From NCBI GenBank assembly GCA_003702495.1, contig REGH01000004.1:2706-46027 (forward strand): 43,322 nt of DNA, read 5' to 3'. Both the position numbers and the translations under genes were made by a program. Positions 38,332-43,322 of the stretch are shown here, piece by piece (the first letter of the stretch is position 1; each line of letters starts with the position of its first letter). This DNA is from Candidatus Nitrosopumilus sp. GTDB lineage: Archaea > Thermoproteota > Nitrososphaeria > Nitrososphaerales > Nitrosopumilaceae. The notes under the pieces were generated by a model that had not been told where the DNA came from, searched no databases, and saw only the letters and a list, made by a program, of their open reading frames with translations.

Positions 38332-38493
38332 ATGTCGGTAGAAGTAACATGTGGAAAATGTGGTGAAAAGATCACAAATATGAAGATGCTAAAATCTCTA
38401 AAAGATGTAATGAATCCTTATAGTGGAAAATGTCCTTCATGTGGACAGAAACTCTCTACATCAGAGTTTTCATTAGATGTTCAAGAAAAATAA
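38332..38493 (+). CDS. 53-aa zinc-ribbon protein
   Basis: A small protein with two CxxC knuckles: CGKC (residues 7-10) and CPSC (34-37), separated by 23 residues, a rubredoxin/zinc-ribbon pattern. It has no other domain. The TATA-like box 27 bases upstream and the clean ATG-TAA frame support it as a real gene. The role is unknown; nucleic-acid or protein binding is usual for such knuckles. It lies alone between thiolase/DUF35 and the NrdD-like gene, with T-rich sequence after the stop. Confidence 0.8.
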   Translation: MSVEVTCGKCGEKITNMKMLKSLKDVMNPYSGKCPSCGQKLSTSEFSLDVQEK

Positions 38494-38500
38494 TCTCTAA

Positions 38501-38599
38501 TTTTTGATCTTTTTCTACAATTTTTAAAAATTTGATCAAAAAGCTTTCAATGCATTTGGAAAAATGATCAAAATTCAAACTGTCATAAGTCTTAATTAG
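38501..38599 (+). promoter_or_regulatory. Promoter of the NrdD-like regulator gene with repeated GATC sites
   Basis: GATC next to A/T-tracts occurs at 38506-38509, 38534-38538 (GATCA) and 38566-38570 (GATCA). A 14-bp AT-only palindrome lies at 38519-38532. CTTAATTAG (38591-38599) is the likely TATA box, 26 bases before ATG 38621. Similar GATC(A) elements occur upstream of the ribonucleotide reductase gene. Confidence 0.4.
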
Positions 38600-38620
38600 T
38601 GCGTTTTTTATGAAAAAGAT

Positions 38621-40789
38621 ATGAAAATGTCCGATGAAGAATTAGAAATGGATCTGGATGGTGATCTAGATGCAGATATGGATGACGATGATGACCTGGA
38701 CATAGATGATGATTCAGATTCTTCAAAACGCGGTGGAATTTTACAATCTACATCAAAACGTGTGAGAATGATCTTCTCTGTAATGGCAAGTCCGAACAGA
38801 ATCGATATCCTGAGAATTCTAAATTCAAAAGGTCCTTTAACTTATTCCGAATTAAAATCCCTAGCTGGATTCAAATCAAAAAAAGAGAGTGGAAAATTTG
38901 CATATCACTTGAGAAAATTACTTAGACAATCACTTGTTGCATTAAACAAATCTGAAAGACGTTATACAATTACAAATCTTGGAAAATTGGTTTTGAGCTT
39001 AGCCAGACAAATTGAAGAAAGATCAATTATTGAAAGTGGAAAGATGTATGTTAGAACATCACACGAATCAATTGAAGAATTCAATTCTCACAAAATTATT
39101 CAATCTTTGGTGCGTGAGGGTAGTCTCCCACTTGAATTGGCACAAAAAATTACTGAAGAAGTTGAAAATAGAATCTACAAATATCAAACCACCTATCTCA
39201 CAGGCTCACTTATCAGAGAAATGGTAAATTCTGTCCTACTCGAGCACGGTCATGAGGAATACCGCAACAAGCTTGCACGCCTAGGCTTGCCAGTTTTTGA
39301 TGTTCAAGAGATGATTACTAACTTGGACAATGTAGATAATGGCGCTGAAGGTCTTTTGTTCAAAACAGGGCAAAAAGTCTTTGCAGAACATCTTCTTACA
39401 AACATTTTACCAAAAGATGTAGCTGACTCTCATCTTTCAGGTGATCTACACATTGCAAATCCTGGAATCTGGTCGATGATTCCTGACACAATATTTGTTA
39501 ACGTTAAAGAATTAATCGAAGATGGAATTGATCTTGGCGGAAAATATCTTGATGTTTCAAGAATCCCTGCATCAAAACAACTAGATGAAATTACAAGTGC
39601 ATTATCTATTGTAATTTCTCTTCTTTCAAAAGAAGCTTCAGAAGAAATTGTACTTGATGGATTAGTTTCATTATTTTCAAAACATTCCAAGTCACTTCCA
39701 GAACTAGAGCAAAAACTAGCTGCAGCATTTGCAACTGCATCTACAACTTCCAAATACAACAAATCAAGTACTAATGTTTCAATTAGATTGCAATTAGGAT
39801 CTGACACAAAAATAATCAACTCTATTATCAATGCATACAAAAACTATGCACAGATCACACCAGTACCAAAAATTGGTTTAATCATTGACAATGAGAAAGG
39901 AAAGATCACAGATGTTTCAGCAGCTGCATCAGAAATAATTTCACTTGGTGGAAAAGTAATGTTTGCTAAAGGAAACACATCAAGTCTTGGTGTTACAAAT
40001 GGATCTGCAAAGAACTCTGGACCACTTTCAATCATGCTTCAATCCGTATCAATTAATCTTCCAAGATTGGCATTTGAATCAAACAAGGATGAAACTTACT
40101 TTAGAGCAAGATTGGCATTGCTCATGAAACCAGCTTTATCTTCAATGGCATTAAGAAAGAAAGACATTTCAGATTTGACTAGACGTGGTCTGAACCCAAT
40201 TTTGGCCAAAAATACCCAGTATATGCAAAAAAGCAATGTCTCACTTGTTGTTAATTTAGTAGGCCTCAAAGAGGCAGTCTTTAACATCCTTGGATTCAAG
40301 GATAACAAGGAAGGACGTGAAATCCTTCACAAAGTAATTGAGACTGCAGTCGACGTTGGAGCCAAAAAAGGCAAAGAATTAGGTGATCCAGTGGCTATTT
40401 GCATGACTGAGACTGAAAGTTCAACCAGATTTGCTACCCTTGATGGTGAGAAATATGGCAAAAACTCCTCTCTAAACTCTATGGAAGGAGATTCTTACTC
40501 TGAAGGAATAACCATTGATGCCTCTGAGGTTTCTGACCTCACTACCAAGAGTGAGCCAATCTCCGAATGCAACAAACTCTCAAAGTTGTTAAACGGCGGA
40601 TTGTTTGTAACACTCAACATTAGTAAAGATGCAAAGGTCGCAGACATCAAAAAGGCAATTGAGAAAACAGCAGAACTCACAACCTCATTCAAACCAGTTC
40701 AAGAGATTGCTATCTGTGGTGAATGTGGTTTCAAAGATGAACCATTTGAAGACAAGTGTCCAAAGTGCAAGTCTCCCTATGTTGTCTGA
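38621..40789 (+). CDS. Winged-helix/ATP-cone/NrdD-like fusion lacking the glycyl-radical loop
   Basis: A 722-residue protein. Residues 1-35 are acidic (Asp/Glu runs). Residues about 45-125 form a winged helix (MASPNRIDILRILNSKGPLTYSELKSL, AYHLRKLLRQSLVAL...YTITNLG). Residues about 142-235 form an ATP-cone (MYVRTSHESIEEFNSHKIIQSL). From about 270 it matches anaerobic ribonucleotide reductase NrdD (HLSGDLHI, STRFATLDGEKYG, LLNGG). It ends with zinc cysteines C699, C702, C713 and C716 and stops six residues later. In NrdD the glycyl-radical loop follows these cysteines, and it is absent in every frame after this stop. The likely reading is a nucleotide-sensing regulator built from a dead enzyme, perhaps of the neighbouring reductase gene. 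An NrdD-like enzyme with another radical source is less likely. Confidence 0.8.
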   Translation: MKMSDEELEMDLDGDLDADMDDDDDLDIDDDSDSSKRGGILQSTSKRVRMIFSVMASPNRIDILRILNSKGPLTYSELKSLAGFKSKKESGKFAYHLRKLLRQSLVALNKSERRYTITNLGKLVLSLARQIEERSIIESGKMYVRTSHESIEEFNSHKIIQSLVREGSLPLELAQKITEEVENRIYKYQTTYLTGSLIREMVNSVLLEHGHEEYRNKLARLGLPVFDVQEMITNLDNVDNGAEGLLFKTGQKVFAEHLLTNILPKDVADSHLSGDLHIANPGIWSMIPDTIFVNVKELIEDGIDLGGKYLDVSRIPASKQLDEITSALSIVISLLSKEASEEIVLDGLVSLFSKHSKSLPELEQKLAAAFATASTTSKYNKSSTNVSIRLQLGSDTKIINSIINAYKNYAQITPVPKIGLIIDNEKGKITDVSAAASEIISLGGKVMFAKGNTSSLGVTNGSAKNSGPLSIMLQSVSINLPRLAFESNKDETYFRARLALLMKPALSSMALRKKDISDLTRRGLNPILAKNTQYMQKSNVSLVVNLVGLKEAVFNILGFKDNKEGREILHKVIETAVDVGAKKGKELGDPVAICMTETESSTRFATLDGEKYGKNSSLNSMEGDSYSEGITIDASEVSDLTTKSEPISECNKLSKLLNGGLFVTLNISKDAKVADIKKAIEKTAELTTSFKPVQEIAICGECGFKDEPFEDKCPKCKSPYVV

Positions 40790-40814
40790 GATTCATAATT
40801 GAAAAACTAGTTAC

Positions 40815-40993
40815 GATCATTTTTGAAACTTTTTTGATCCATTTCAGACTTTCGCGATCATCGTCTATTCTGATAGTTATGCCATTATGAAGTTCATAGT
40901 AGCGTTGTCAAATTTTTTGCACCGAAGTTAAAGACAAAAACTGACAAACCATTTATACCCATATTGATCATAAACCTTTGCGGGGAGATTATA
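40815..40993 (+). promoter_or_regulatory. Long promoter/leader of the ribonucleotide reductase gene
   Basis: The 204-base gap holds GATC(A) elements at 40815-40819, 40836-40839, 40856-40860 and 40966-40970, some flanked by T- or A-tracts like those before the NrdD-like gene. TTTATACC (40951-40958) is the likely TATA box, about 40 bases before the ATG, leaving a short leader with a GGGGAG element at 40982-40987 that may act as a ribosome-binding site. I see no ORF and no B12-box-like riboswitch sequence here. Confidence 0.45.
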
Positions 40994-43322
40994 ATGGATA
41001 ATTCACAACTAGAAAATACTATCACTGAGATCCGTAAGCGCAGTGGCGCAGTAACGGCTTTCAATAAAGATAAAATTTCAAATGCCATTTTCAGGGCATT
41101 GGCAGCCACCTCTAAAGCCGACCGTGGCCTAGCCGATCAGTTAGCAGATAATGTTGTTAACAAATTAGTGGAACAAGGCTTCACTAGTACTAGAAGTCCT
41201 ACAGTTGAAGACATTCAAGATATTGTAGAGTCCACCTTGATTGACAGTGGCAATAGCGATATCGCAAAAGCCTACATTGTTTACAGACATGAAAGAAGAA
41301 AACTAAGAGACGAAAAAATGAAGGTCTTGAATCTAAAGGCCCTTGATCCAGTCTCCAAAAAGTTTGACCTGAATTGTCTTAGAGTTTTAGCATCAAGATA
41401 CCTTTTCAGAAATGGAAAAAATGAGATTATTGAGTCTCCAACTCAAATGTTTGAGAGAGTTGCAATTCTTGTTGGAATTGGTGATCTCATGTACGATTCC
41501 CAAGTCTTTGACAAATCTGGAAACACAAAACAAGATGTGGAAGAAGCAAAGTCTTATCTTGAAAAACTAGATGCCTTTGACTATAAATTCAAAGTTGGAG
41601 ACTATTTCTTCAACAAATGGCATTTCAGATCACTCATCAATCACTATGTAACTCTTGCAAACAAGGGTCACATGAAAGTGAGCTTCAAAGAACTCTTGAC
41701 ATTACTTGCAGCAAAGAAACTAGATAACTATGCTGACAAAATCACAGAGTACTTTGATCTGATGATTTCCCAAGACTTTTTGCCAAACTCTCCAACAATG
41801 ATGAATGCAGGTGGAAGACTAGGTCAACTTTCTGCATGCTTTGTACTTGGAATGAATGATGGCATGGAAGAAATTATGAAATCAACTTCTGACGCAGCAT
41901 TGATCTTCAAGTCTGGTGGTGGAGTTGGAATCAACTATTCTGATCTTCGTGAAGAAGGTGACATTGTAGCATCAACATCCGGTGTTGCATCTGGTCCAGT
42001 GTCTTTCATGAACATCATCAACACTGTAACTGAAGTTGTTAAACAAGGAGGAAAGAGACGTGGAGCTAACATGGGTATCATTGAAGCATGGCATCCAGAT
42101 GTTGAAAAATTCATTACAAACAAAACAGAACCTGGTGTTTTAGAGAACTTTAATGTCAGCGTTGGTGTTTGGGAAGACTTTTGGCATGCACTTGTAAACA
42201 CAAGTGACGGTAACTATGTTTTACGTAGCCCTCGTGATAAAAAACCAGTTAAAGAAATTAATGCACATCAACTAATTGATTTGATTGCATTATCTGCATG
42301 GAAGAGTGCAGAACCTGGTTTGATCTTCTTTGATCAAATTAACAAATACAATGTATTTGCAAAAGCAAGACAAGCACCATTACGTGCAACAAACCCATGT
42401 GGTGAACAAAGTCTTTACCCATACGAATCATGCAACCTTGGTTCTATCAATTTAGTAAATCTCGTCAAGAGACAAGCAGATGGAAACTATGAATTTGATT
42501 GGCAAAGATACGAAGAGACAATCAGAAAGACTACCAGATTCCTTGATAACATCATTGATGTTAATCACTATCCAGTACCAGAGATTAACGTGGCATCAAA
42601 AGAATCTAGAAGAATTGGATTGGGTGTTATGGGAGTAGCAGATCTCTTGTACAAACTAAGAATCCCATACAACTCCAAGGAGGGATATGAACTACAATCC
42701 AAACTATCTGAAGCCCTCACATACTATTCCATGGAAGAAAGTGTAGCCCTTGCAAAGTCTCGCGGTGAATTCCCATTATGCTCCAAGACAGAATATCCTG
42801 AAGGAAAGATTCCTGTTGCAGGCTATTATGAAAAGCCAAAGGAATCTCACTCCTATGAATGGGATGCACTAATTGAGAAAATCAAACAATATGGAATTAG
42901 AAATGTCCTGACAACAACAGTAGCTCCAACAGGTACTTTGTCAATGATTGCAGACTGTTCAAATGGAATGGAACCTGCATTTGCATTAGTATTTGAAAAG
43001 AGAGTTACTGTAGGAAGATTCTTCTACACAAACAAAATTGTCGAACAAGTCCTAAAAGAAAATAACCTATACAACGATGAAATTCTTGCAAAGATTGCAG
43101 ACAACTATGGTTCATTGAAAGGAATTGAAGAGATTCCTCAATGGATGCAAGATGTCTTTGTTACTGCAATGGATATTCACTGGTCTGATCACTTAATGGC
43201 TCAAGGTGTATGGCAAGACTGGATTGGAAATGCAATTGCAAAAACAATCAACATGCCATATGATGTAACTGCAGAAGATGTAAAATCTGCATATCTGCTA
43301 GCACATGAGATTGGTCTAAAAG
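40994..43322 (+). CDS. Ribonucleoside-diphosphate reductase, B12-dependent class II (partial)
   Basis: The gene starts at ATG 40994 and runs off the right edge with 776 full codons visible. Residues about 13-105 form an ATP-cone (SGAVTAFNKDKISNAIFRAL...KAYIVYRHERRKLRDEK), the site for dATP/ATP activity control. The reductase barrel follows, with C282 (LSACFVLG), GGGVGINYSDLR, and the catalytic NPCGEQ (C469, E471) with ESCNLGSINL. It makes deoxyribonucleotides from ribonucleotides. Class II (adenosylcobalamin) is inferred from similarity to NrdJ-type archaeal enzymes and because thaumarchaea make B12; the C-terminus needed to confirm it is outside the window. It sits downstream of the NrdD-like regulator. 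Confidence 0.9.
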   Translation, partial: MDNSQLENTITEIRKRSGAVTAFNKDKISNAIFRALAATSKADRGLADQLADNVVNKLVEQGFTSTRSPTVEDIQDIVESTLIDSGNSDIAKAYIVYRHERRKLRDEKMKVLNLKALDPVSKKFDLNCLRVLASRYLFRNGKNEIIESPTQMFERVAILVGIGDLMYDSQVFDKSGNTKQDVEEAKSYLEKLDAFDYKFKVGDYFFNKWHFRSLINHYVTLANKGHMKVSFKELLTLLAAKKLDNYADKITEYFDLMISQDFLPNSPTMMNAGGRLGQLSACFVLGMNDGMEEIMKSTSDAALIFKSGGGVGINYSDLREEGDIVASTSGVASGPVSFMNIINTVTEVVKQGGKRRGANMGIIEAWHPDVEKFITNKTEPGVLENFNVSVGVWEDFWHALVNTSDGNYVLRSPRDKKPVKEINAHQLIDLIALSAWKSAEPGLIFFDQINKYNVFAKARQAPLRATNPCGEQSLYPYESCNLGSINLVNLVKRQADGNYEFDWQRYEETIRKTTRFLDNIIDVNHYPVPEINVASKESRRIGLGVMGVADLLYKLRIPYNSKEGYELQSKLSEALTYYSMEESVALAKSRGEFPLCSKTEYPEGKIPVAGYYEKPKESHSYEWDALIEKIKQYGIRNVLTTTVAPTGTLSMIADCSNGMEPAFALVFEKRVTVGRFFYTNKIVEQVLKENNLYNDEILAKIADNYGSLKGIEEIPQWMQDVFVTAMDIHWSDHLMAQGVWQDWIGNAIAKTINMPYDVTAEDVKSAYLLAHEIGLK

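Follow-up and report, generated by a model that had tools for sequence, protein, structure and literature searches.

What does an NrdD-like protein without a glycyl-radical loop do next to a class II ribonucleotide reductase? This question is raised by a stretch of 43,322 nucleotides from Candidatus Nitrosopumilus sp. (order Nitrososphaerales; hereafter the window), in which the first-pass annotation had suggested a nucleotide-sensing transcription regulator made from a dead enzyme. Our analysis supports this idea: the catalytic cysteines are gone and the linkage to a reductase gene holds across the order. We put at roughly 0.8 the probability that the gene encodes a transcription regulator that senses nucleotides and controls ribonucleotide reductase, and that it derives from an NrdD in which catalysis was lost and a winged helix added. 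The architecture, the loss of catalysis, the strict linkage, the conservation of the helix-turn-helix (HTH) and the cone, and the signal at the locus are read from sequence; the binding of DNA and of nucleotides and the direction of control are inferred. The features are located in Table 1.

Table 1. Positions in the window of the proposed regulator, the adjoining reductase and the elements around them
Feature	Position	Strand	Basis or remark
Proposed regulator gene, 722 aa: HTH, ATP-cone, catalytically dead NrdD body, zinc site	38621..40789	+	
Winged helix-turn-helix, residues 47-127, most conserved part	38759..39001	+	HTH_20, DUF7347
ATP-cone, residues 142-225	39044..39295	+	PF03477
NrdD-type body, residues 245-690, conservation low (33%)	39353..40690	+	PF13597, E 3e-26
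Val458, where active NrdD has the thiyl-radical cysteine	39992..39994	+	Alignment with nine active archaeal NrdDs
Zinc site C699 C702 C713 C716; no trace of the glycyl-radical loop after it	40715..40768	+	
Candidate operator TTGTCAAATTTTTTGCACC	40905..40923	+	Matrix from other Nitrosopumilaceae; no binding data
TATA-like box TTTATA of the reductase gene	40952..40957	+	By eye; 42 bp ahead of the start codon
B12-dependent ribonucleotide reductase (class II) that includes an ATP-cone; cut by the window edge	40994..43322	+	TIGR02504; PF03477, PF00317, PF02867
GATC array upstream of the regulator	38506..38569	.	No stretch of the window is denser in GATC
GATC array upstream of the reductase	40815..40859	.	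Second densest GATC cluster

The protein had been described from the letters alone as a winged helix, an ATP-cone and an NrdD-type body, and all of these are recovered by Pfam above the curated cut-offs. HTH_20 (PF12840, residues 55-107) scores 32.5 bits against a cut-off of 27 and DUF7347 (PF24038, residues 51-125) 40.7 bits against 27.6; the cone (PF03477, residues 142-214) reaches 34.6 bits against 25.8, and the NRDD match (PF13597, E 3e-26) has its best stretch at residues 470-718. The score against the NrdD equivalog TIGR02487 is 84 bits, below the cut-off of 326. The AlphaFold model of the protein is poor overall (pLDDT 56), with a fair barrel as its sole usable part. From this model of low overall confidence come 33 fold matches in the PDB with E below 0.001, and 33/33 are class III reductases. 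With the ArsR-like winged-helix regulators (PF12840, PF24038) the protein shares a DNA-binding head that matches the profiles above the curated cut-offs. Typical members of that group are either small proteins or have different sensor domains; here an ATP-cone, carried by a dead reductase, is the sensor. Mean pairwise identity within the order, across families, is 75% in the HTH and 66% in the cone compared to 33% in the body, which indicates that selection keeps the regulatory parts and leaves the enzyme part free to drift.

The loss of catalysis extends beyond the missing loop. As the first-pass annotation had stated, the reading frame ends shortly after the zinc site: the stop follows six codons past C716 of C699/C702/C713/C716, and no RxxGY motif is present behind it in any of the three frames. 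The orthologous sequences that have a C-terminus end alike (35/35); in all of them the four zinc cysteines are invariant, with no further invariant cysteine, and the glycyl-radical motif is absent after the zinc site. Because of this common end, the truncation is no assembly error. A frameshifted or split NrdD, already doubted when the sequence was first read, was rejected on the same ground, and no orthologue with an intact glycyl-radical motif, which would have refuted the dead-enzyme claim, was found.

We used nine active archaeal NrdDs, found in the studied loci, as reference for the catalytic site. The thiyl-cysteine pair CC of the active enzymes has become G-[VIL] in 17/17 representatives of the order, and the second catalytic cysteine has given way to Thr in 12 of them and to some other residue, never cysteine, in the remaining five. 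Complementation of the glycyl radical in trans was rejected, since these proteins lack the thiyl cysteine too. The NrdG activase (TIGR02491) is above cut-off in 0/41 genomes of relatives, with positive controls detected.

Outside the order, the thiyl cysteine is missing in 30/32 homologues. The exceptions L168 and L169 have it in the motif TGCR, which aligns with the MGCR of the Streptococcus thermophilus NrdD, in which the thiyl residue is Cys400 (PMC12662201), and they carry SR[VI]SAK at the site of SRVTGY in active enzymes. These two sequences rule out the simpler statement that the thiyl cysteine is lost in every regulator. The most NrdD-like relative, L168, scores 324.7 bits against the equivalog cut-off of 326. 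Loop relics such as TRVYGKYLP are seen in other homologues outside the order, for example L180, which has kept the glycine of the relic loop and lost the thiyl cysteine. Compared with the uniform losses among the order representatives, the retained thiyl cysteine of L168 and L169 and the loop relics show that catalysis was lost by degrees outside the order and entirely inside it. The half-decayed relatives (L168:3134-5479, L169:3628-5937 and L180:4179-6506) are possible intermediates in this loss. Three further HTH-cone-NrdD relatives of 550-617 aa (L172, L173 and L174) have lost the zinc site too.

The neighbouring gene is the class II reductase that the first-pass annotation had named: the frame starting at 40994 (+) scores 686 bits against TIGR02504 (NrdJ_Z), for which the cut-off is 400. 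No other reductase was seen in the genome of the window except a fragment on contig C40, which is probably the end of the window reductase itself. The regulator gene is closed in 155 loci of the order. It is followed on its own strand by a class II reductase in 152 of them, and the remaining 3 are contig ends. The type of partner varies, and includes class II reductases with an ATP-cone, others with Ribonuc_red_2_N and TSCPD, and short forms. Outside the order, an active NrdD lies downstream in 8/32 loci and a class II reductase in 1/32; in the other 23/32, no reductase was found in the stretch read. Several families of the order also include genomes with a second class II reductase of ~700 aa, distant from the regulator (G026:C97, G027:C16, G035:C2, G036:C19 and G039:C153).

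Orthologues of the proposed regulator are present in 39/41 relatives and, more broadly, in 178/182 good genomes and 59/60 genera of the order. One relative (G030) has a reductase of 752 aa without the regulator. Proteins with the same HTH and cone, mostly of 550-790 aa, occur in other classes of Thermoproteota. In a tree of cone plus body, 45 regulators separate from 8 active NrdDs on a single branch with 100/100 support. Contigs with a regulator gene of ~90% identity to that of the window were also met in a Phycisphaerales bin (L077) and a Proteobacteria bin (L130), and are probably archaeal contamination of bacterial bins.

In the gap between the regulator and the reductase gene we found a candidate operator of the form TGTCAA-N6-TTnACA. 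Among all hexamers, TGTCAA shows the strongest over-representation in the 220 bp that follow the regulator (10/17 compared to 2.6 expected, in a discovery set of 17 representatives from 16 families); after correction for all hexamers, P is 0.008 for the forward strand and 0.12 for both strands. New loci from further genera and species, mostly of the discovery-set families and many of them related, gave forward TGTCAA in 16/27 cases outside Nitrosopumilaceae (1.85 expected), and KTGTCAA in 12 of the same 27 in forward and 0/27 in reverse orientation. Plain TGTCAA showed no enrichment in 13 new Nitrosopumilaceae loci. A second arm like TTGACA appears at spacing 6 only; 18/33 sites match it in no fewer than 4 of 6 letters, compared to 7% for TGTCAA elsewhere. 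The whole palindrome, with at least 10 of 12 letters, is found in 21/64 gaps and 16/65 regulator upstreams, compared to 0.6% of control windows. The exact pattern TGTCAAN6TTNACA occurs at nine places in 12 whole genomes, eight of them at the regulator-reductase locus, and one of these eight precedes the regulator itself. In the genomes tested, the palindromic signal is nearly confined to this locus.

Nitrosopumilaceae carry the signal as an imperfect palindrome, GNTGTyAA-N5-TTGA. This degenerate pattern is not specific genome-wide, with only 10/28 places at the locus. Within the window, a matrix built from other members of the family scores 30.2 bits at 40902 and at most 11.1 elsewhere, and places the candidate operator inside the gap at 40790-40993, one of the regions where the first-pass annotation had proposed that binding be sought. 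Some families have a weak signal or none. Outside the order this operator was barely detectable, the matrix test on nine loci giving only P 0.05.

Other elements flank the regulator in this family. The densest 200-bp GATC windows in the 43 kb are its two flanks (38470-38670 and 40770-40990), and GATC arrays occur across Nitrosopumilaceae, with up to 10 GATC in the gap of locus L140, and were seen in no other family. They were rejected as the operator, as no enrichment at the locus was found in other families of the order; genome-wide, GATC triplets are no commoner than a control pattern. A perfect inverted repeat, TATGAAGTTCATA, lies at 40886-40898 directly before the candidate operator and is visible in several further Nitrosopumilaceae. 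Just upstream of the regulator, a 53-aa zinc-ribbon-like frame with two CxxC pairs (CGKC and CPSC) spans 38332-38493 (+), and its 3' end is at the same place in other Nitrosopumilaceae.

Could this locus be explained in another way? The retained NrdD body and zinc site would fit a still-active reductase that receives its glycyl-radical part in trans or through a frameshift. This is already contradicted by the loss of the thiyl cysteine in every representative of the order, by the lack of an NrdG above cut-off in any relative, and by orthologues that share one end with no RxxGY past the stop in any frame. The strict linkage to the reductase gene is also what one would see if the dead NrdD acted at the protein level, binding the class II reductase or competing with its cones and tuning its activity, with the HTH as a secondary feature. 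Pseudoenzymes frequently control their active relatives, and some of the partner reductases are without a cone of their own. Nonetheless the HTH is the most conserved part of the protein and a palindromic DNA signal is present at the locus. Moreover, the partners span several class II types and active NrdD, and are unsuited to one fixed interface. We hold control at the protein level to be quite unlikely.

It is also unlikely that the protein regulates transcription from a different target, such as the GATC arrays of Nitrosopumilaceae, and that TGTCAA-N6-TTnACA is read by another factor. The arrays mark exactly the two regulator flanks in this family, where the palindrome is imperfect. However, they are unenriched in other families even though the HTH is conserved, and the palindrome is almost unique to the locus and recurs before the regulator, as predicted for a local autoregulator.

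Under the preferred reading, a transcription regulator made from a dead NrdD, the protein is most likely the functional counterpart of NrdR, with DNA and nucleotide binding inferred in this comparison. NrdR is rare in archaea (PMC9110341). It was above cut-off in 0/41 relatives, with positive controls detected, and the NrdR model TIGR00244 gave no match to the window regulator at E up to 1 among the NCBIfam models. Because NrdR was not found in relatives, the suggestion in the first-pass annotation of an NrdR-like logic that was built independently fits. Like NrdR, the protein combines an ATP-cone as probable nucleotide sensor with a DNA-binding head, is dedicated to the genes of ribonucleotide reductases, whose class may vary, and probably controls its own gene. 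A palindromic signal also lies upstream of the reductase, its role as a binding site being inferred from sequence alone. NrdR has ~150 aa and a zinc-ribbon head at its N-terminus, whereas the protein described here has a winged helix, ~700 aa with a dead NrdD body, a C-terminal zinc site and a candidate operator of another sequence, for which there are no binding data. Compared with NrdD itself (TIGR02487, PF13597), it shares the homologous body, the ATP-cone, the C-terminal four-cysteine zinc site and, as its only fold matches, the class III reductases; it differs by the added winged helix and by the absence of the glycyl-radical loop, the thiyl cysteine and NrdG.

How might such a switch work? 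The two cones of the active S. thermophilus NrdD pair with dATP and move apart with ATP, a movement of ~40 Å (PMC12662201), and in NrdR the cone alters the oligomer state and hence DNA binding (PMC9110341). We infer that the NrdD body would serve as a dimer chassis and that ATP and dATP would compete for the cone. With a winged helix before each cone, the two heads would be drawn together or apart by the cone switch. This movement would set or break the head spacing that fits TGTCAA-N6-TTGACA, so that a palindrome of fixed spacing reads the switch. Once on the DNA, the regulator would exert its effect from a place upstream of the core promoter of the reductase gene. By eye, the site lies ~38 bp (window) to ~80 bp (family f10) upstream of the reductase TATA-like box, a position that is easier to reconcile with an activator, or with an effect from a distance, than with occlusion. 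This leans to activation at low dNTPs, but the sign of control at the reductase promoter remains open. At the regulator, sites often span its own TATA-like box (TGTTAAATACATTTGACA in L224). In several families the bound protein may thus cover this box as well, and this position suggests autorepression.

Some points stand against this proposal: the retained body exceeds the size needed for a mere dimerisation unit and, outside the order, a reductase adjoins in just 9/32 loci. With slightly better than even confidence, we extend the proposal to a phylum-wide family of archaeal regulators. It would have arisen once, by fusion of a winged helix to NrdD and catalytic death, and would follow class II and class III reductase genes as the archaeal answer to NrdR, with the reductase fold as a nucleotide-driven chassis that spaces two heads.

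We found no description of the HTH-cone-dead-NrdD architecture in the open-access literature, which is no proof of absence. In annotation, proteins of this kind are hits to NRDD and can make class III reductases look too numerous in archaea. If our reading is true, this is a clear case of a pathway enzyme turned into a transcription factor of the same pathway. To our knowledge, no general transcriptional control of dNTP supply is known in ammonia-oxidising archaea. The protein is a near-universal candidate regulator of this supply, for which a candidate operator and likely effectors can be named. In ammonia-oxidising archaea and many related archaea it is most likely the gene switch, so far missing, that senses nucleotides and governs the supply of DNA precursors.
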